A stretch of 36,368 bases of DNA from Bacteroidales bacterium. Lineage in GTDB: Bacteria > Bacteroidota > Bacteroidia > Bacteroidales > UBA932. Where the stretch lies: the NCBI GenBank assembly GCA_017439305.1, contig JAFSJK010000030.1, forward strand, positions 1 through 36,368, in the 5' to 3' direction. Positions 23,113-30,967 of this stretch are shown piece after piece. The translations under genes and the position numbers were made by a program. Within the stretch, counting starts at the first letter, position 1. Each line of letters begins with the position of its first letter. The notes beneath the pieces are model-generated. The model was given only the letters and a program-made list of their open reading frames with translations, did not search any database and was not told the DNA's origin.

Positions 23113-24528
23113 ATGACTTTCATCAACCCTGACTTCATGCTCCAGACGGAGACCGCCAAGAAACTGTACCATGAGCACGCGGAAAAGATGCCCATCATCG
23201 ACTATCACTGCCACCTCGTTCCGCAGCAGATCGCCGAGAACATCCAGTTCCGCGACATCACCCAGCTGTGGCTGGTGGACGGCCACTACGGCGACCATTA
23301 CAAGTGGCGCGCGATGCGCGGGAACGGTGTTTCCGAAGATTACCTCACCGGTGGCAAACACACCGCTTGGGAGACCTTCGAGAAATGGGCGGAGACGGTA
23401 CCTTATACGATGCGTAATCCGCTGTATCATTGGACCCATCTGGAGTTGAGTCGCGTGTTCGGCATCGACAAGCTCCTGTGCCCGGCGACGGCCCGCGAGA
23501 TCTTCGAGGAGTGCAACGCGAAGCTGGCGACGCCCGAATTCCGGGGCCAGGCCCTCATCCGCCGGTTCAATGTGGAGGTGGTGTGCACCACCGACGATCC
23601 GGCCGACGACCTTCGCTGGCACAAGATGATTGCGGAGAAGCCCTTCGGCACGAAGGTGATTCCCGCCTGGCGTCCGGACAAGGCGATGGCCATCGAGAAC
23701 CCGGTCGCCTACAAGGCTTATCTGAAGCAGCTTGGCGAGGCTGCCGGAATGGAGATCGACTCCTACCGCGACCTTTGCGAGGCCCTGCAGAAGCGGCATG
23801 ACTTCTTCGCCTCCATGGGCTGCAAGCTCTCCGACCATGGTCTGGAGAACTTCTACAGCGCCGACTACAAGGATCTCGAGATTGAACTGATCTTCAAGAA
23901 GGTCCTGATGGGCATCGCCCCGAATCCGAAGGAACTGGAGAAGTTCCGCAGTGCCTTCCTGCACGACCAGGCCGTGATGGACGCCGAGGCCGGCTGGGCC
24001 CAGCAGTTCCACATCGGTGCCATTCGGAACAACAATACCCGGATGTTCAACGCCGTGGGTCCGGATACGGGCTACGACGCCATCCACGATCCGGAAATCG
24101 CGGCTGCCGGTCACCGCTTCTTCGACCGGCTCACACTGGAAGGAAAGCTTGCGAAGACCATCCTCTACTGCTTGAATCCCAAGGACAACGCCGTCATGAT
24201 GACGATGGCTTACACCTTCAACGACGGCACCGTTCCCGGCAAGATGCAGTTCGGATCAGGCTGGTGGTTCCTGGATCAGGAAGTGGGCATGCGCCGCCAA
24301 CTGGACTCCCTCTCCAACCTGGGTCTCCTGAGCCGTTTCGTGGGCATGCTCACGGACAGCCGCAGCTTCATCAGCTACCCGCGCCACGAGTATTTCCGCC
24401 GCATCCTCTGCGATGTGATCGGAAAGGATGTCGAGCAGGGCAAGCTCCCGGTCTCCGAACTCGATTTCATCGGCAAGATGGTCGAGGACATCTCCTACAA
24501 TAACGCGAAGAATTACTTTCAGTTTTAA
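23113..24528 (+). CDS. uxaC: Uronate isomerase (glucuronate/galacturonate isomerase)
   Basis: A cytoplasmic amidohydrolase-superfamily enzyme converting D-galacturonate to D-tagaturonate (and D-glucuronate to fructuronate), the first step after uptake. The 471-residue length is normal. Visible motifs include the N-terminal metal-site strand IIDYHCHL near residues 28-35, NNNTRMFNAVGPDTGYD, the QFGSGWWF block, and the C-terminal RHEYFRRILCD segment. The chosen start follows a 68-base gap containing a stem-loop. The stop overlaps the uxaA start by one base (TAATG), so the two are translationally coupled. Confidence 0.96.
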   Translation: MTFINPDFMLQTETAKKLYHEHAEKMPIIDYHCHLVPQQIAENIQFRDITQLWLVDGHYGDHYKWRAMRGNGVSEDYLTGGKHTAWETFEKWAETVPYTMRNPLYHWTHLELSRVFGIDKLLCPATAREIFEECNAKLATPEFRGQALIRRFNVEVVCTTDDPADDLRWHKMIAEKPFGTKVIPAWRPDKAMAIENPVAYKAYLKQLGEAAGMEIDSYRDLCEALQKRHDFFASMGCKLSDHGLENFYSADYKDLEIELIFKKVLMGIAPNPKELEKFRSAFLHDQAVMDAEAGWAQQFHIGAIRNNNTRMFNAVGPDTGYDAIHDPEIAAAGHRFFDRLTLEGKLAKTILYCLNPKDNAVMMTMAYTFNDGTVPGKMQFGSGWWFLDQEVGMRRQLDSLSNLGLLSRFVGMLTDSRSFISYPRHEYFRRILCDVIGKDVEQGKLPVSELDFIGKMVEDISYNNAKNYFQF

Positions 24529-26006
24529 TGAATTACATCAAGATCAATCCGTCGGACAATGTGGCGGTCGCGCTGCAGGATCTCGTGAAAGGCGAGGTCG
24601 TGGAGGGTGTGACCCTGTCGATGGACATTCCCCGGGGACATAAGATCGTCCTGAAAGACCTCAAGGCAGGGGAGAACGTCATCAAGTACGGCTTCCCGAT
24701 TGGTCATGTGACACGTGATGCGGCAGCCGGCACGATGGTGGACCATACCTGCATCAAGACGAACCTGGAAGGTTTGCTGGATTATAGCTACCAGCCTGCC
24801 CTGGTGGATATTCCTGATGCTCAATTGAAGCGGACCTTCAAGGGATTCCGCCGTACGGACGGGCAGGTGGGTGTCCGCAACCAGATCTGGGTCATCCCTA
24901 CGGTGGGATGTGTCAATGGCATCTGCCAGCAGATTGTGGACCGCTTCAAGGCGGAGGTCGCCGGTCGTGAGGGGAGTGTCGACGCCATCGTCGCTTTCCC
25001 GCATAACTACGGCTGTTCCCAGCTCGGGAATGACCACGAGAACACCCGCACCGTCCTTGCGGATATGGTGCATCATCCCAATGCTGGCGGCGTGCTGGTG
25101 GTGAGTCTCGGCTGCGAGAATAACCAGCTGGATGCTTTCCGCGAACTTGTCGGCCCGGTGGATGAAAGCCGCGTGCGGATGTTCAAGACGCAGGAAGTGG
25201 ATGATGAGGTGGAATACGGCTTGCAGCAGTTGCGCGAGATCTTTGCCGTGTGCTCGAAGGACGTGCGCGAGGACGTTCCAGTGTCCGAACTCCGTGTGGG
25301 CCTTAAATGCGGTGGCTCCGACGGCCTCAGCGGCATCACGGCGAATCCGCTTCTCGGCGTCTTCTCCGATTGGATCGTCGCCCAGGGCGGCACTACGGTC
25401 CTGACCGAAGTCCCCGAGATGTTCGGTGCGGAAACCATCTTGATGAACCGTTGCCAGGATGTGGAAACTTTCGACAAGACAGTCCATTTGATTAACGACT
25501 TCAAGGAATACTTCATGAAGCAGGGAATGCCCGTGTACGAGAATCCCTCTCCGGGCAACAAGGCCGGCGGCATCTCCACCCTGGAGGAAAAATCCCTCGG
25601 CTGCACCCAGAAATGCGGCAAGAGCATCGTCCGCGGTGTCCTGAAGTATGGTGAGCGTCTGAGCGTCAAGGGACTCAATCTCCTCAGCGCCCCGGGCAAC
25701 GACCTCGTGGCCTCTACGGCTCTCGCTTCTTGCGGCTGCCAGATCGTTCTGTTCACTACCGGTCGCGGCACCCCGTTCGGCACCTTCGTTCCCACGATGA
25801 AGATTTCCACCAATACGCCCCTCTTCGAGAAGAAGGGCAACTGGATCGACTTCAACGCCGGCGTCCTCGCCCAGGGCGAACCGATGGCGGACGTCTCCGC
25901 CCGCTTCATCGACTTCGTCCTTGCCGCCGCTTCTGGCGCCCCGGTGAACAACGAAAAGAACGGATATCGCGAGATCGCGATCTTTAAGAGTGGTGTAACG
26001 CTTTGA
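24528..26006 (+). CDS. uxaA: Altronate dehydratase
   Basis: It dehydrates D-altronate to 2-keto-3-deoxygluconate in the cytoplasm. The 492-residue protein has the N-terminal SAF-type domain (residues about 1-95, with PRGHKIVLKDLKAGENVIKY) fused to the UxaA catalytic part. The latter shows GFRRTDGQVGVRNQ, FPHNYGCSQLGND, GLKCGGSDGLSG and EKSLGCTQKCG, whose cysteines are typical of this metal-dependent family. It overlaps uxaC by one base. After its stop, only 20 AT-rich bases precede a small peptide gene rather than uxaB, so the usual uronate-pathway cluster is interrupted by a four-gene insert. Confidence 0.95.
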   Translation: MNYIKINPSDNVAVALQDLVKGEVVEGVTLSMDIPRGHKIVLKDLKAGENVIKYGFPIGHVTRDAAAGTMVDHTCIKTNLEGLLDYSYQPALVDIPDAQLKRTFKGFRRTDGQVGVRNQIWVIPTVGCVNGICQQIVDRFKAEVAGREGSVDAIVAFPHNYGCSQLGNDHENTRTVLADMVHHPNAGGVLVVSLGCENNQLDAFRELVGPVDESRVRMFKTQEVDDEVEYGLQQLREIFAVCSKDVREDVPVSELRVGLKCGGSDGLSGITANPLLGVFSDWIVAQGGTTVLTEVPEMFGAETILMNRCQDVETFDKTVHLINDFKEYFMKQGMPVYENPSPGNKAGGISTLEEKSLGCTQKCGKSIVRGVLKYGERLSVKGLNLLSAPGNDLVASTALASCGCQIVLFTTGRGTPFGTFVPTMKISTNTPLFEKKGNWIDFNAGVLAQGEPMADVSARFIDFVLAAASGAPVNNEKNGYREIAIFKSGVTL

Positions 26007-26026: not shown

Positions 26027-26194
26027 ATGAAAGAGTTATTTAAGCGACAGGGGCTCATCCCTTATGAGGCTCCTGAGACAGAAGTCATCGAGACGGTGTT
26101 TGAAACCGGGTTCCTGATTTTGAGCAATGAGACGGACACTTCGACTGTCCCGGATTTGGTAGAAGAGGATTATTCCGATTCGATTTGGAATTAA
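26027..26194 (+). CDS. Small acidic peptide (55 aa), P-E motif family, unit 1
   Basis: No function is recognised. The start at 26027 gives MKELFKRQGLIPYEAPETEV...; a frame-open ATG at 26003 would overlap uxaA and adds nothing. The peptide has a basic N-terminus, the core YEAPETEVIE, a hydrophobic patch ETGFLILSN near residues 29-37, and a strongly acidic tail (DLVEEDYSDSIWN). The pattern Y-x-[AT]-P-E-x-x-V-[IL]...F-L-x-x-S recurs in the 46-residue peptide at 27812, and short proteins of this look are familiar from Bacteroidales genomes without known role. There is no signal sequence and no cysteine. Its stop codon overlaps a Shine-Dalgarno-like TAAGGAGGA serving the next lipoprotein gene, so it may act as a coupling leader, as a partner of the lipoprotein, or as a peptide precursor; which is unknown. 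Confidence 0.75.
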   Translation: MKELFKRQGLIPYEAPETEVIETVFETGFLILSNETDTSTVPDLVEEDYSDSIWN

Positions 26195-26200
26195 GGAGGA
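26193..26200 (+). promoter_or_regulatory. Shine-Dalgarno-like site overlapping the upstream stop
   Basis: AAGGAGGA overlaps the TAA of the 55-residue peptide gene and lies 7 bases before the ATG at 26207. Other start sites in this window lack such a sequence, as expected for Bacteroidota, so this one is distinctive. Confidence 0.7.
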
Positions 26201-26206
26201 ACAACC

Positions 26207-27805
26207 ATGAAAAAGTTTGGATTTGTCTTGGCTATTCTTGGCCTTGTCTCTTTCTTCTCTTGCCAAAAAGAAGTTGAGAAACCGATTGAAAACCCTGTAA
26301 ATGATGGGATTACTACCTTCCAGGCTTCGATGCCCGAAACCCGGACTACGTTGGACAGACCGTCCGTGAAATGGACGGCGGGTGACCAGATCCGCGTGAT
26401 TGGTTATACCGATGCTTCCACTATAGACCAGGCTACTTTCACCCTTCAGTCTGGAGAAGGTAGCGGCAATGCTGTTTTCGCTATTGACGAAGGCCAGAAG
26501 ATGGGGGGCTCCCATACGTCCTATTTTGCATTCTATCCGGCCAATATTGCTATCAATCCTAGCGCGCTTCCGGGTGCGATTGAGGTCAAGTCCGGCATCA
26601 CCACCTTGGAGTCCCAGGCGGCCGTTGAAAACGGCTTCGACCCTTCTCTCGCCATCATGACGGCGAAAGCCGATGCGGACGGGAAGCTGGTTTTCCGTCA
26701 CGGCGTGGCTTATGTTGGCATTCAGATTCCGGACGACGGTATTACAGCCCTGGCGGTCAAGTTCGGAAAGAATGCGGTCCAAAAGCGTCCCGCGTATGAT
26801 GCCGCAGGAGGTGGTATATCCGCGAACAATAGCGGTACCAGCACGTTGAAGGCAGTTGGCACTTTTGTAAAGGGGTCGTATTACTATCTGTGCGCGATTC
26901 CCAACACGGGCAACAAAATGATCTCGGTCACGGTGACCTATACGCACAACGGTGTCGAGAAAAGTGTCACTTCCACCAGCATGGGGGATGACAATTTGGT
27001 GCCCGGGAAGTTGTACGACTTCGGCTGCCCGCCTCTCAAGACTCCGCCGCCCGCAATTTCAGCCTCCGCTCAGACCATTCCTTTCGATGCAACCAGCGGT
27101 TCCATCGAATTCACGGTTGAGAATCCCGTTTCGGATGGTGTCCTGACGGTCGAAACGGTCGGTGATGCCGATTGGTTTACGCTGGGAACACTGGAATCAA
27201 CCTCCGTTCCTTTCACTTGTGAGGCCAACGACGCATCGGATGCTGTCGAGCGTTCCGTGAAGGTCCTGTTTACTTATACATATAACGGAACTGAGGCTGT
27301 AACCAAGGAAGTGGCTGTTACTCAACTTGCAAATGAAGCGCCGGGCAGTCATTCCTATGTCTTTTACATGAATAATGACTCCGGTTCTGTCGTACAGTTG
27401 AAGGATGGTGAGGCTTGTGACTACTTTACTGTTACCGGGTCAAGTAAGCTTCAGTGCTCGGCATCAGGTTATTTCGGAGTTGAAAGTTATACCGTCGATG
27501 ATCTCACGCTCAAGTATGCCAAGAAGATTGACGGTTCCAATGGAGTCAGTTTCACGGCTCGTGCCGGGTATTCCTCGACAGCACGGTTCTACTGTGCCAG
27601 CCGGAACACCAATACGACGGCTACGATGAATTTATTGGAAGGTACTGCAAAAAAGAAAACCCTTTCCCTGACTTGGACGGACAACAAGGCCGACTTGATT
27701 GACTCCGGGGAGATTACCTTAACTCCGGAGGCTGTCTACAGCTTCTCCAAGTCCGGTGAAGTCGGTCTGTTCTATGTCGTTGTGACCGAGACTCCGCAGC
27801 TTTAG
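26207..27805 (+). CDS. Fimbrillin-like / BACON surface lipoprotein
   Basis: A 532-residue protein without recognised catalytic residues. The signal ends at Cys19, followed by QKEVEK, a good surface-export sequence. Residues about 35-275 resemble the fimbrillin-like N-terminal domain of Bacteroidales lipoproteins (QASMPETRTTLD, VKWTAGDQIRVIGY, PGKLYDFGCP), with Arg46 in the PETRT motif. Residues about 281-375 fit a BACON-type sandwich (ISASAQTIPFDATSG ... VTQLA). Residues 382-532 form a C-terminal module starting HSYVFYMNNDSGSVV and ending GLFYVVVTE, related to that of the pectate lyase at 27965. The gene is lower in GC than its neighbours. It probably binds pectin or a partner at the surface; this is inference. 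It is translationally linked to the peptide gene before it. Confidence 0.78.
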   Translation: MKKFGFVLAILGLVSFFSCQKEVEKPIENPVNDGITTFQASMPETRTTLDRPSVKWTAGDQIRVIGYTDASTIDQATFTLQSGEGSGNAVFAIDEGQKMGGSHTSYFAFYPANIAINPSALPGAIEVKSGITTLESQAAVENGFDPSLAIMTAKADADGKLVFRHGVAYVGIQIPDDGITALAVKFGKNAVQKRPAYDAAGGGISANNSGTSTLKAVGTFVKGSYYYLCAIPNTGNKMISVTVTYTHNGVEKSVTSTSMGDDNLVPGKLYDFGCPPLKTPPPAISASAQTIPFDATSGSIEFTVENPVSDGVLTVETVGDADWFTLGTLESTSVPFTCEANDASDAVERSVKVLFTYTYNGTEAVTKEVAVTQLANEAPGSHSYVFYMNNDSGSVVQLKDGEACDYFTVTGSSKLQCSASGYFGVESYTVDDLTLKYAKKIDGSNGVSFTARAGYSSTARFYCASRNTNTTATMNLLEGTAKKKTLSLTWTDNKADLIDSGEITLTPEAVYSFSKSGEVGLFYVVVTETPQL

Positions 27806-27811
27806 ATTGCC

Positions 27812-27952
27812 ATGAAACGCATTGAATACAAAACCCCGGAGTGTCGTGTGCTTCCGGTTCATGTTGACCAAAACTTCCTCGCCAGCAGCGATTTCGGCGG
27901 AGACGGGTATCCGGGATCGGACCTGGAGCCCGGGGATGAGTTTGATTTCTAA
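27812..27952 (+). CDS. Small acidic peptide (46 aa), P-E motif family, unit 2
   Basis: A short gene 6 bases after the preceding lipoprotein, translating to MKRIEYKTPECRVLPV... of 46 residues. It shares with the 55-residue peptide the pattern Y-x-[AT]-P-E-x-x-V-[IL], then F-L-x-x-S (here QNFLASSDF), and an acidic, Gly-rich tail ending GDEFDF. It has one cysteine and no signal sequence. The stop TAA overlaps AAGGAG, just as in unit 1. The matched motif, matched position before a PETRT lipoprotein and matched stop/ribosome-site overlap argue that it is real despite its size. Function is unknown. Confidence 0.72.
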   Translation: MKRIEYKTPECRVLPVHVDQNFLASSDFGGDGYPGSDLEPGDEFDF

Positions 27953-27956
27953 GGAG
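27951..27956 (+). promoter_or_regulatory. Shine-Dalgarno-like site overlapping the upstream stop, unit 2
   Basis: AAGGAG shares its first two bases with the TAA of the 46-residue peptide gene and lies 8 bases before the ATG at 27965, repeating the arrangement of 26193-26200. Confidence 0.65.
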
Positions 27957-27964
27957 AACGGGCT

Positions 27965-30900
27965 ATGAAAAAGATTCTGTTTCCGGTTCTCCTCGGAGCA
28001 CTTGCGCTGGTTTCCTGCCAGCGGGAGAAAGACTTGCAGCATGACGGCGTCGCCATTACGGTGACGGCCGGTATTCCCGAGACGCGTACTTTCATCGAGA
28101 ACGACGGCACAGCCTGGATTCCTTCATGGAACAAGGACGACGTGTTGGCCGTGATGGTCGATGGGGCGTATGACAAGCCCAATGGGCTCAAGAACACATC
28201 CGAGGATGGCCGTACGGCGACGTTCTCCGGGACTCTGGAGGATGTCGAGGACGGCGAGCACGTCCTCACGGCCTGGTACCCCAAGGATTTGAAGGCGGGT
28301 CGAAGCGAGAGTGTGATGAAATACCAACTCGCTGAGGAACAGACGCTTCCGTCGTTGACTTCCTTCGACCCTGCGATGGATCTCCTCGTGGGTATGCCCG
28401 CGACCTTCACGGTCGCAGACGGCAAGGCGAATGTGGACAACATGCGCTTCCGCCGCGTGTTCACCGTGGTGAAGGTCGCCCTCAAGGACGGGTCCACCCT
28501 GCTTGCCGGCAGGAAGGTTTCCCGCGTGGCGCTCACTGCAGCTGCGACCCTCACCGGCAAGGCCAATGTGGAAATCACCACGGGCGATATCACCAAGTGG
28601 GAGACTCCTTCCGCAACTGTCGCCGGCAATTATGCGGGTGATGACTTTACGATGGACGGAAACCATTCGGCCTTCCTGATCGTCAATCCCGCTACCCTTG
28701 CTGCCGGTTCCATCCTGACGGTGGATGTGACGACGGACGATGACAACCTCCTCATTTCCAAGAGTGTAACCCTTCCGAAGGAGGTTGTCTTCGCCGAGAA
28801 CAAGGTGACTTCCTTGAACTTCACGCTCACTGACGACAATGTGCAGGACAAGTCCAGCGTGATGTCCTGGACCTGGGACTTTTCCACGACGGAATGGCAG
28901 GACGCCCTGGCCGAGCAGGCTCCGGGTGCCAACGGAACCAATCAGGCGAACTGGAGTGTCAGCCTGAATGGCCTCACCTATACCTCCGGCAGCAAGAATG
29001 GCAAGTGGAGCACGGACGGCTACATCCAGCCCAATGGCGCCGGCAGTACGACGGAACGCGTATTCTCGTTCACGGCTCCCGCGGACGGCACCTTGAAGGT
29101 GACGGCCTCCACGCCGACCAAAGATGCCGTCAGAAACGTCTGTGTGGTCGGTACTGACAGTCAGTCCGTTCCTACCGACGGCTCCAAGGGAGAACTGGTA
29201 TTCTCCGTCAAAGAGGGGAGTGTCAAGGTCTATCCCGATGCCGGCATCCGTTTCTGGAAGTTCGTCTATGTCTCCGGTGGCTCCGGTGAGGATCCGGACG
29301 ACCCCGACCAGCCTGTGGATCCCGGCGAGACGGCCGAGCTCGAATGCCCGGATCCGCCCCAGACCGGTACGGTGGAGTTGGACAAGCTCTACGGCTATGG
29401 CACGGGCGTTACCGGCGGCGATGCGGCCACATCGGCCAACATTCTCCATTTCAACAGCGGCAAGGCCCTTCAGACCTGGCTCCTGGCCCGTACCAAGGCA
29501 GAGAAGAACGGTGACCATACGCCTGTAACCATCTGGCTCAGCGGTACTTTCAAGCCGGATGACGGCCGCGATTTCTCTGAGGCCCACCCTTGGTTCGACG
29601 TCAAGGACGTCTCCAACCTGAGCTTCTACGGCACCGATGATTTCGTCATGGACCGGATCGGCATCTTCTGTGTCCGGGCGAACAACATCATCATCCGGAA
29701 CATCAACTTCCAGCAGCCGAAGGCCAACAACGGTGCCGATGCCGTGTCCATGCAGGATTGTGACGGCGTGTGGGTGGACCATTGCACCTTCACCTCCCTC
29801 AACCAGACCAAGGACTACGAGGACGGCTCCTGTGACATTACCCACGAGTCCAAGAACGTGACCGTGAGCTGGTGCCGGTTCATCAAGACCCAGAAGTCCT
29901 GCCTGGTGGGCCATTCCAACAGCGCATCGGCCGATGTGGCCATCACTGCGACCTTCCATCACAACTGGTTCGACCAGTCCAGTTCGCGTCATCCGCGCGT
30001 GCGTTATGGCAGGGCCCACGTGTACAACAATCTCTTCGACGGTTGCACGACCTACGGCGTAGGATCGGCCTATGGCGCTAAGGTGCTGGTTGAATACAAC
30101 TATTTCGACGCGGTCCAGCTCCCGACCGACATCTGCACCTATCCCGCCAAGGAAAGCAACGAGTCCAACCTCCAGGGATCCGTGGCCGGTTATCTGTATG
30201 CGACGCAGGATGTCTTCGTGAACCGTCCGGCCAAGGCCAAGGACCCGTATCCGCTGACGAACGTCAAGTACAAGTCGTACGGCGGTGAGACCATCACTCC
30301 GTTGACCTATGCCGATTTCAAGCCGGCGTACAGCTATGTCGTCACCCCGGCAGAAGATGTGCCCGAGGTGGTCCGGGGCGGTGCCGGTTACGGCAAGCTC
30401 GGCTGGACGGAAGCCCCTGTCTCCGTGAACAACGGCGGCATTACGGACTTCAACGGTTCGGACGACGATCCCGTGGATCCGGATCCGGACGATCCCGAGA
30501 ATCCGGACGATCCCTCCGGGGCCCATACGTATGTCATCTATATGAATGATTCCGCCTCGGTGGTCTCCACGGTAGACGGGAAGTCCGGAAGCACGTATTT
30601 CACGTATTCCACTTCGGCCGCCGATTTCCGCAAGCCGGCCTCCGACGCCTACAATGGCCCGTTCGAAATCGACGGAACGACTTATCAGCGCGGTTTCAAG
30701 ATGGACAGCAAGGGATTCATTACCTTCACGACGTCCTCTGCTTGCCAGACGACGGTCCGGTTCTATTTCGCCCGCCGGAAAGAGGCGGACGAAAGCGCCA
30801 AGATGCAGCTCATTCCGACTGGTGGCGATGCCCAGGTGTTCAGTACGCCTTTTACTTCCTATGGGGATTCCGGCGCCATCGAACTGGCCCGGGGAACCGA

Positions 30901-30967
30901 ATACACCATCAAGCAGAAATCGAGTGAACAGGCTGTTATCCTGGTCGTCGTCTCGGAAAGCGAATAA
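27965..30967 (+). CDS. Fimbrillin-like / WDFS module / PL1 pectate lyase surface lipoprotein
   Basis: A 1000-residue multidomain pectate lyase. The lipoprotein signal ends at Cys18 with QREKDL following, suggesting surface display. Residues about 28-290 are fimbrillin-like (TAGIPETRTFIE with Arg41; later FAENKVTSLNFTLTDD). Residues 300-436 are a WDFS module (WTWDFSTTEWQDAL ... FWKFVYVSGG) like the tandem ones in the lipoprotein at 19730. A Pro/Asp linker leads to the PL1 beta-helix (about 460-825) with VWVDHCTFTSL, DITHESKNVTVSWCRF, FHHNWFDQSSSRHPRVR and probable catalytic Arg675. A second Asp/Pro-rich linker (about 830-850) precedes the C-terminal module 853-1000 (AHTYVIYMNDSASVV), shared with the upstream lipoprotein. 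The PL1 domain differs from that of the lyase at 12739, suggesting a distinct pectin substructure. Uptake from another lineage is possible. Confidence 0.87.
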   Translation: MKKILFPVLLGALALVSCQREKDLQHDGVAITVTAGIPETRTFIENDGTAWIPSWNKDDVLAVMVDGAYDKPNGLKNTSEDGRTATFSGTLEDVEDGEHVLTAWYPKDLKAGRSESVMKYQLAEEQTLPSLTSFDPAMDLLVGMPATFTVADGKANVDNMRFRRVFTVVKVALKDGSTLLAGRKVSRVALTAAATLTGKANVEITTGDITKWETPSATVAGNYAGDDFTMDGNHSAFLIVNPATLAAGSILTVDVTTDDDNLLISKSVTLPKEVVFAENKVTSLNFTLTDDNVQDKSSVMSWTWDFSTTEWQDALAEQAPGANGTNQANWSVSLNGLTYTSGSKNGKWSTDGYIQPNGAGSTTERVFSFTAPADGTLKVTASTPTKDAVRNVCVVGTDSQSVPTDGSKGELVFSVKEGSVKVYPDAGIRFWKFVYVSGGSGEDPDDPDQPVDPGETAELECPDPPQTGTVELDKLYGYGTGVTGGDAATSANILHFNSGKALQTWLLARTKAEKNGDHTPVTIWLSGTFKPDDGRDFSEAHPWFDVKDVSNLSFYGTDDFVMDRIGIFCVRANNIIIRNINFQQPKANNGADAVSMQDCDGVWVDHCTFTSLNQTKDYEDGSCDITHESKNVTVSWCRFIKTQKSCLVGHSNSASADVAITATFHHNWFDQSSSRHPRVRYGRAHVYNNLFDGCTTYGVGSAYGAKVLVEYNYFDAVQLPTDICTYPAKESNESNLQGSVAGYLYATQDVFVNRPAKAKDPYPLTNVKYKSYGGETITPLTYADFKPAYSYVVTPAEDVPEVVRGGAGYGKLGWTEAPVSVNNGGITDFNGSDDDPVDPDPDDPENPDDPSGAHTYVIYMNDSASVVSTVDGKSGSTYFTYSTSAADFRKPASDAYNGPFEIDGTTYQRGFKMDSKGFITFTTSSACQTTVRFYFARRKEADESAKMQLIPTGGDAQVFSTPFTSYGDSGAIELARGTEYTIKQKSSEQAVILVVVSESE

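Follow-up and report, generated by a model that had tools for sequence, protein, structure and literature searches.

A family of small genes paired with fimbrillin-domain lipoprotein genes in Bacteroidales, with a possible role in the making of surface proteins

Leader genes with ribosome reinitiation have been described in which, for Bacteroidetes, the stop-to-start gap peaks at 11–14 bp in the counting of those authors (Korolev et al., 2016, PMC4833913). For mgtQ, a leader of 8 codons with alternative stem-loops, translation of the leader is needed for the downstream gene (PMC8092293, PMC11282234), and the acidic residues that act in EttA-type destabilisation lie within the first 30 amino acids (PMC11282234). 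The present analysis concerns a stretch of 36,368 nucleotides (nt) from an uncultured Bacteroidales bacterium of the UBA932 group, probably of rumen origin (contig JAFSJK010000030.1, hereafter the window), in which two small open reading frames (ORFs) each directly precede a gene for a lipoprotein with an N-terminal fimbrillin domain. In gut and rumen Bacteroidales, fimbrillin-type lipoproteins and the cargo of the type IX secretion system (T9SS) are major components of the cell surface, and to our knowledge no small upstream gene has been described for FimA or Mfa1. The unit of peptide gene and fimbrillin lipoprotein gene is almost certainly real and conserved, and the tiny gene probably helps the cell to make or export fimbrillin-fold surface proteins.

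The pairing was recovered from the peptide side. The second window peptide alone as query found six further places in its own genome, five of them peptides, and a seven-peptide profile found 21. Twenty of these were ORFs of 41–55 amino acids ending 1–28 nt before a lipoprotein start picked by its lipobox (the other start rule gives −35 to 27 nt for the same 20 pairs); the 21st (E 0.75) held no peptide. Since the profile is blind to the next gene, the 13 new pairs are an independent confirmation. Among controls, a lipoprotein came next after only 11 of the 495 small ORFs drawn at random and after 12 of the 100 genes. The paired lipoproteins usually carry a T[RK] motif and W..[GD]D close to the N-terminus. 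After each of two pairs on contig C65 of this genome (L032), genes resembling secreted M6-type metalloproteases (named by reading) were also seen. The family search gave 29 matches in other genomes, 26 with a locus, and 24 of the 26 precede such a lipoprotein by reading (17 under the first strict filter of the script), the exceptions being L054 (391 nt) and L064 (next protein not a lipoprotein). Among the matches listed in the genus search, at least 52 of 61 genomes held the peptide. Of the 40 weakest listed congeneric matches 39 were readable, and for 35 of the 39 a lipoprotein follows, at −20 to +36 nt. The pairing is not confined to the window, and in the genus few peptides stand apart from such lipoproteins (4/39: L127, L140, L141 and L145). 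L127 and L141, from two congeneric genomes, hold about 400 nt into the locus a near-identical orphan peptide, KENY.TPETE.VELQTEGTITA, with no lipoprotein behind.

Beyond the genus, the order and phylum searches yielded 29 loci (three congeneric). At 20 of these the script found a lipoprotein next, inspection by eye added one, and the other eight have none. The peptide profiles reach little past a few families, with matches in 13 of 247 and 17 of 295 genomes of the order samples and in 2 of 296 of the phylum sample. In genome G653 (L249, from 1501) the peptide is fused in frame, with no stop, to a lipoprotein signal, forming one frame of ∼370 amino acids.

The paired lipoproteins have in common an N-terminal fimbrillin (type V pilin) domain with the double beta-sandwich fold of that group, and their C-terminal modules vary: the 20 own-genome members match leucine-rich repeats (LRR_5, 7), Big_2 (4), Lcl_C (3), non-specific endonuclease (2) and Omp28 (1). 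The fimbrillin module thus looks like a plug-in surface scaffold. Two of the 20 match PF13149 and one NF038041 at E up to 0.01, and neither family was matched by the two window lipoproteins. The lipobox cysteine is invariant in all 20 aligned sequences, as expected of signal peptidase II substrates, and the alignment showed a nearly invariant T followed directly by a basic residue. A role of Arg-gingipain in the cleavage of fimbrillin after Arg/Lys is reported in PMC5954841.

The reverse test started from the domain. Its profile matched at least 58 of 60 congeneric genomes, among the matches listed. The set comprised the best place in each of 30 genomes and, from the strongest listed places that had no locus yet, a further 60 (two already-read places skipped, some others overlapping earlier loci), with many domains left unread in some genomes, e.g., among the 53 matches in G105. 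A Y-x-x-P peptide stood directly upstream of 77 of these 90 strongest listed fimbrillin-domain genes (26/30 by reading and 51/60 by rule, checked by eye), and the same rule found none upstream of 60 own-genome control genes (Fisher p 2e-29). Among the peptide-less genes, 11 lie directly behind a long ORF (one cut by a contig end) and two (L341, L346) have neither; the other frames at the nine exceptions among the 60 places contained no hidden peptide. Peptide and fimbrillin-domain counts per genome were correlated (Spearman 0.81, 60 genomes), and the nine genomes without peptide have 0–4 fimbrillin domains each. All 20 own-genome pairs are among the 30 best domain matches of that genome; the non-pairs are L196, L198 (without peptide), L199 (second in a tandem) and weaker domain matches. 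L196 (C3:63972-64379) is a fimbrillin lipoprotein with an upstream peptide that appears frameshifted or decayed.

The small ORFs form one family with the N-terminal pattern K..Y.xPe.evv.v..E..F..S (the N-block). Y-x-x-P occurs in 105 of the 106 paired peptides and W, F or Y within the last four residues in 82, both features being contained in the profiles that found them. Conservation lies at both ends of the peptide, with a variable stretch between them. The tail shows enrichment of W, D, E, N and G and is acidic, with a mean charge of −3.9 in the last 15 residues versus +0.3 in the first 12. No signal peptide was found, and 105 of the 106 lack a hydrophobic stretch of at least 11 residues, so that the product should remain inside the cell. 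Purifying selection on the small ORFs, a check named beforehand, was observed at orthologous places chosen via the lyase, with ratios of nonsynonymous to synonymous substitution (dN/dS) of 0.18 (peptide 2–L074), 0.31 (peptide 2–L073), 0.31 (L073–L074) and 0.24 (L075–L077). These comparisons cover peptide 2, the orthologs of peptide 1 having been excluded by the identity and coverage filter. They are relied on because the pooled value of 0.25 is biased by selection of its pairs at ≥50% identity, and it was set aside. Peptide starts are A-rich (0.43 vs 0.26 at internal ATGs, p 1e-33), which fits reported initiation in Bacteroidetes, a phylum said in PMC6847099 to be without Shine-Dalgarno (SD) sequences. 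Searches with 39 peptides returned no Pfam family at E up to 1, no match among PDB sequences, two chance-level NCBIfam matches (E 0.17, 0.19) and two weak unnamed PHROGs matches (E 0.02, 0.03). Small ORFs with Y..P are known in other Bacteroidales and Firmicutes, and small-protein families have reportedly been treated by Sberro et al.

The two pairs of the window and their neighbours are arranged as follows.

26027..26194, + strand: small ORF 1 (peptide 1, 55 amino acids), upstream partner; own-genome profile match with an ortholog in L074
26054..26125, + strand: N-block of peptide 1 (residues 10-33, Y-x-x-P ... FL-x-x-S), from alignments
26147..26191, + strand: acidic/aromatic C-tail of peptide 1 (residues 41-55), from tail statistics
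26192..26199, + strand: TAAGGAGG, stop codon of peptide 1 overlapping an SD-like site, 7 nt from the start of lipoprotein 1
26207..27805, + strand: lipoprotein 1, 532 amino acids
26294..27049, + strand: fimbrillin-fold domain of lipoprotein 1, about residues 30-281
26333..26347, + strand: PETRT motif of lipoprotein 1, a possible processing site
27041..27340, + strand: Ig-like (BACON-type) domain of lipoprotein 1 (Pfam BACON E 4e-4, under cut-off)
27344..27802, + strand: carbohydrate-binding domain of lipoprotein 1
27812..27952, + strand: small ORF 2 (peptide 2, 46 amino acids), upstream partner; orthologs in L073, L074, L075 and L077, used for dN/dS
27815..27889, + strand: N-block of peptide 2, from alignments
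27908..27949, + strand: acidic/aromatic C-tail of peptide 2
27950..27956, + strand: TAAGGAG, stop of peptide 2 overlapping an SD-like site
27965..30967, + strand: lipoprotein 2, 1000 amino acids, with pectate lyase
28034..28834, + strand: fimbrillin-fold domain of lipoprotein 2, about residues 24-290
28076..28090, + strand: PETRT motif of lipoprotein 2
29648..30106, + strand: pectate lyase domain (PL1) of lipoprotein 2 (PF00544, E 9e-34)
30650..30781, + strand: CBM77 of lipoprotein 2 (Pfam PF18283)
24528..26006, + strand: upstream neighbour, 20 nt from peptide 1, read as uxaA
30986..32428, + strand: downstream neighbour read as uxaB

The sequence-only reading had described two tandem pairs of peptide and lipoprotein here, and all four ORFs are exactly where it placed them. 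Its further observations also hold. The window peptides have a common motif by alignment (Y-x-x-P, an FLxxS-like block and an acidic/aromatic end), and both lipoproteins carry a lipobox, PETRT and a C-terminal carbohydrate-binding module of the same kind. Each lipoprotein starts 12 nt past the peptide stop, which overlaps an SD-like site in the context TAAGGAG(G), with GGAG(G) 7–8 nt from the ATG. The block splits genes read as uxaC-uxaA from one read as uxaB, so named by sequence reading and not by hidden Markov models, and the surroundings read as a pectin/uronate operon. In the predicted model, lipoprotein 1 is laid out as fimbrillin, Ig-like and carbohydrate-binding domain, the last with a fold match to 8wc1 (carbohydrate-binding domain of a pectate lyase) and, over residues 380-532, to 5fu5, which we take to be a CBM77; lipoprotein 2 consists of the fimbrillin domain, PL1 pectate lyase and CBM77. 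Both are surface-type proteins with the pilin-fold module first and pectin-related modules behind.

The suggestion that a functional pair had been recruited to present a pectate lyase stood as far as a conserved, repeated pair with a fimbrillin-fold lipoprotein is concerned, but the peptide tracks the fimbrillin domain and not the lyase. Orthologs in the surroundings of the uxa genes could be read at ten loci, an eleventh (L079) being truncated. At these ten, with the presence of the fimbrillin domain judged by reading, a peptide precedes 10 of 10 fimbrillin-domain lipoproteins (window 2, L073 1, L074 2, L075 1, L077 2, L078 1, L082 1) and none of six pectate lyases without that domain (L076, L078, L080, L081, L082, L083). 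The chance of such a split, calculated by hand, is 1/8008, and the peptide thus belongs to the fimbrillin domain rather than to the enzyme. At L075:5760-5830, upstream of the surviving pair, an apparent relic of the first peptide (MTIYTAPQA...) is joined to the end of the lost lipoprotein.

Scanning from −40 to +60 nt gave 106 pairs from 121 peptides (15 gave no pair). Their gaps peaked at 12 nt (14 pairs), with six pairs at 13 nt, nine at 18 nt and three at 5–11 nt; 100 of the 106, all on the same strand, had gaps of ≤30 nt, ten of these overlapping, a spacing like that of coupled leaders. Of the 20 paired lipoprotein genes, 8 have an AGGAG/GGAGG core before them, compared with 3 of 81 other genes; three of the eight cores lie within peptide codons, and one of the three control genes itself encodes a fimbrillin domain. 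The stop–SD overlap of the window is therefore recurrent, but it belongs to a minority of pairs and is not the general rule.

Where a fimbrillin gene has no peptide and a long gene stands directly before it, the long protein often closes with an acidic-aromatic tail resembling that of the peptides. The tail score, from a model for which peptides were the sole training data, exceeded the 95th percentile of the background in 11 of 17 such proteins (p about 3e-7), a set that includes four before weak domain matches (L202, L203, L205, L206), and in 8 of 13 before strong fimbrillin domains (p about 5e-7). An earlier acidic/aromatic criterion, fixed after examples were seen, gave 10/17 vs 2/103. For example, L308 has GEDLGDPVNTNPWN where an own-genome peptide has GEDLDDPIDFDPWS. 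Two own-genome lipoproteins without a fimbrillin gene next end at RPVYAE, and one with such a gene next extends from IRPVYGDRPV through TTGGDIEGTEEEPWN. The N-block is missing from the long proteins bearing tails. These tails suggest that the tail belongs to the expression of the next gene and is best read as a cis effect exerted during translation.

The N-block was also found in a different gene order. In a second Bacteroidales family, 11 of 15 genomes had peptide matches (peptides at L211, L213 and L234 were read). At 23 of 29 loci, a count that omits one locus at a contig edge, a large upstream protein ends in Y.L.GR...G.YI..G.K, within 100 nt in 20 of the 23 (by eye). Among 33 upstream tails from this and other families, five were identified by model as T9SS sorting domains (Por_Secre_tail) and four as DUF6383, and two peptides of G431 follow domains over the TIGR04183 cut-off. 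The upstream tails of family f160 look alike by eye (Y.L.GR...G.YI in most), with an hhalign probability of 10. The 5′ and 3′ peptide groups are joined by hhalign over 25 columns of the N-block (probability 96, E 6e-9). The N-block thus accompanies surface-protein genes in two different arrangements, for which a leader function by itself cannot account.

The reading that we favour, tentatively and short of calling it likely, is that of a translationally coupled microprotein gene whose tail acts during translation. The sequence-only reading had named a chaperone, processing substrate, assembly factor or translational coupler as candidate roles; the distribution of gaps and the tails of the long upstream proteins speak for action during translation. 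Each pair would be a two-gene translation unit, with the small ORF yielding a soluble microprotein of 40–60 amino acids that has a conserved N-block and an acidic tail usually ending in W, F or Y. Ribosomes finishing the small ORF would stop a few nucleotides, most often 12, before the lipoprotein start and would then be handed on. The acidic-aromatic tail, in the exit tunnel at termination, would tune the hand-over by slowing release or recycling, and lipoprotein synthesis would depend on the small ORF. Probably the N-block also has a trans role in surface-protein biogenesis, since it stands behind large secreted proteins in other Bacteroidales as well. The data show the conserved pairing, the tie to the fimbrillin domain, purifying selection, the preferred gap, the A-rich start and the tails of some long upstream proteins; translation of the small ORF, the ribosome hand-over, the action of the tail and any trans role are inferred.

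Several observations weigh against this coupling. In the second family, no lipoprotein follows the peptide at any of the 30 loci read, and the position 3′ of secreted proteins makes a leader role impossible there; the motif away from lipoproteins, rare in the genus, is the rule in that family, which speaks partly against a link limited to lipoproteins. The acidic residues lie in tails at about residues 30–55, outside the first 30 amino acids of the EttA type. Folding of 96 junctions showed no sequestered start, with upstream pairing of 0.123 vs 0.146 after codon shuffling. This does not support sequestration of the start by upstream coding RNA, nor the classical coupling by a hairpin, though some forms of translational coupling need no sequestration. 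The gap depends on the choice of start (1–28 vs −35 to 27 nt in the 20 own pairs). Of the 13 long proteins before strong fimbrillin genes, five are under the tail threshold, and the background C-termini came from own-genome genes in general and not from operonic ones alone. AlphaFold2, given peptide 2 and the fimbrillin domain as one read-through chain with 40 alignment rows, predicted the domain well but not the peptide, for which it showed no docking.

It is unlikely, though a serious alternative, that in the cytosol the free microprotein acts in trans as an export partner that binds new fimbrillin-type or, in other families, type IX-secreted preproteins, or else an early export factor; it would keep preproteins export-competent or report load, and adjacency would set dosage alone. 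The conservation of N-block residues across the two gene orders, the peptides behind proteins with T9SS tails, the dN/dS values and the correlation of peptide and domain counts all speak for such a partner. Peptide and lipoprotein subfamilies also co-diverge (Mantel r 0.48 own genome, 0.19 all), significantly but weakly, as linkage alone would give. However, a tail that forms part of an exported protein has no way to act in trans in the cytosol, and the N-block is missing from such proteins; the peptide was also unstructured in the AlphaFold2 model, with a predicted local distance difference test (pLDDT) score of about 65 in the N-block and <50 in the tail.

An envelope role is improbable. Here the exported peptide or tail would fill the strand groove of the fimbrillin as an assembly factor or capping strand, or, in the long upstream lipoproteins, as a C-terminal extension. 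The fimbrillin fold does have strand-exchange relatives and tails are present on exported upstream proteins, but the peptides themselves have neither signal peptide nor hydrophobic stretch, their W/D/E/N/G-enriched acidic tail is not strand-like, and the single read-through chain showed no docking. Still less probable is a bare coupler, in which any short ORF ending near the start suffices and the peptide sequence is irrelevant; short gaps, A-rich starts and SD-like junctions would suit it, and the near-constant Y-x-x-P, the frequent aromatic end (profile-borne as these are) and dN/dS well under 1 would not. A precursor of a modified or signalling peptide (a ribosomally synthesised and post-translationally modified peptide with a double-glycine leader), suggested by a Gly-rich stretch past the N-block in some members, is very improbable and was rejected, since S-x(0-5)-GG occurs in 27 of 106, which does not fit double-glycine cleavage, the ends rather than the middle are conserved, and no modifying enzyme was recognised beside the pairs read, though no search aimed at one.

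Beyond the coupling at the lipoprotein genes, we consider it possible, if doubtful, that the microproteins of ∼45 amino acids in several Bacteroidales families are a general accessory of surface-protein biogenesis, their genes lying on the 5′ side of those for fimbrillin-domain lipoproteins and on the 3′ side of those for type IX-secreted proteins; their tail would be modular and able to move onto the preceding protein. If so, an unrecognised co-translational or early-export step would be common to two outer-membrane export routes, and would work in a phylum whose ribosomes largely dispense with SD signals. A small gene that stands before most of the strongest listed fimbrillin-domain genes of one genus and is absent from the family libraries used may represent a missing step in the making of these proteins. 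The pair also offers a direct test of what replaces SD-driven initiation in Bacteroidota and of how nascent-chain tails might couple genes. In this genus it serves as an annotation marker, predicting a fimbrillin-domain lipoprotein with any C-terminal module.

The pair had been noted as matching no system known to the sequence-only reading; in agreement with this, it is unnamed in the family libraries used, and no description of it was found in the open-licence PubMed Central (PMC) literature. Leader ORFs are the nearest known kind, and a homologous family tied to one domain family was not found in the literature searched. Like the reinitiation leaders described in PMC4833913, the small ORFs are short and stop at a short preferred distance (mode 12 nt here); those leaders usually give no stable protein and are not tied to one protein type, whereas here one homologous microprotein family goes with one domain family in up to 20 copies per genome. 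With the acidic leaders mgtQ and mgtL they share a small ORF with acidic residues before a membrane-protein gene, but here there is no sequestering stem, the acidic residues are at the end, and a surface-protein family is served instead of one transporter. Compared with type V fimbrillins (FimA/Mfa; PF13149 Mfa_like_1), the domain is an N-terminal module bearing lyase, repeat, nuclease or binding domains. Compared with T9SS cargo (TIGR04183, PF18962), the same N-block directly follows cargo genes in some other Bacteroidales, being 3′ there and 5′ here.

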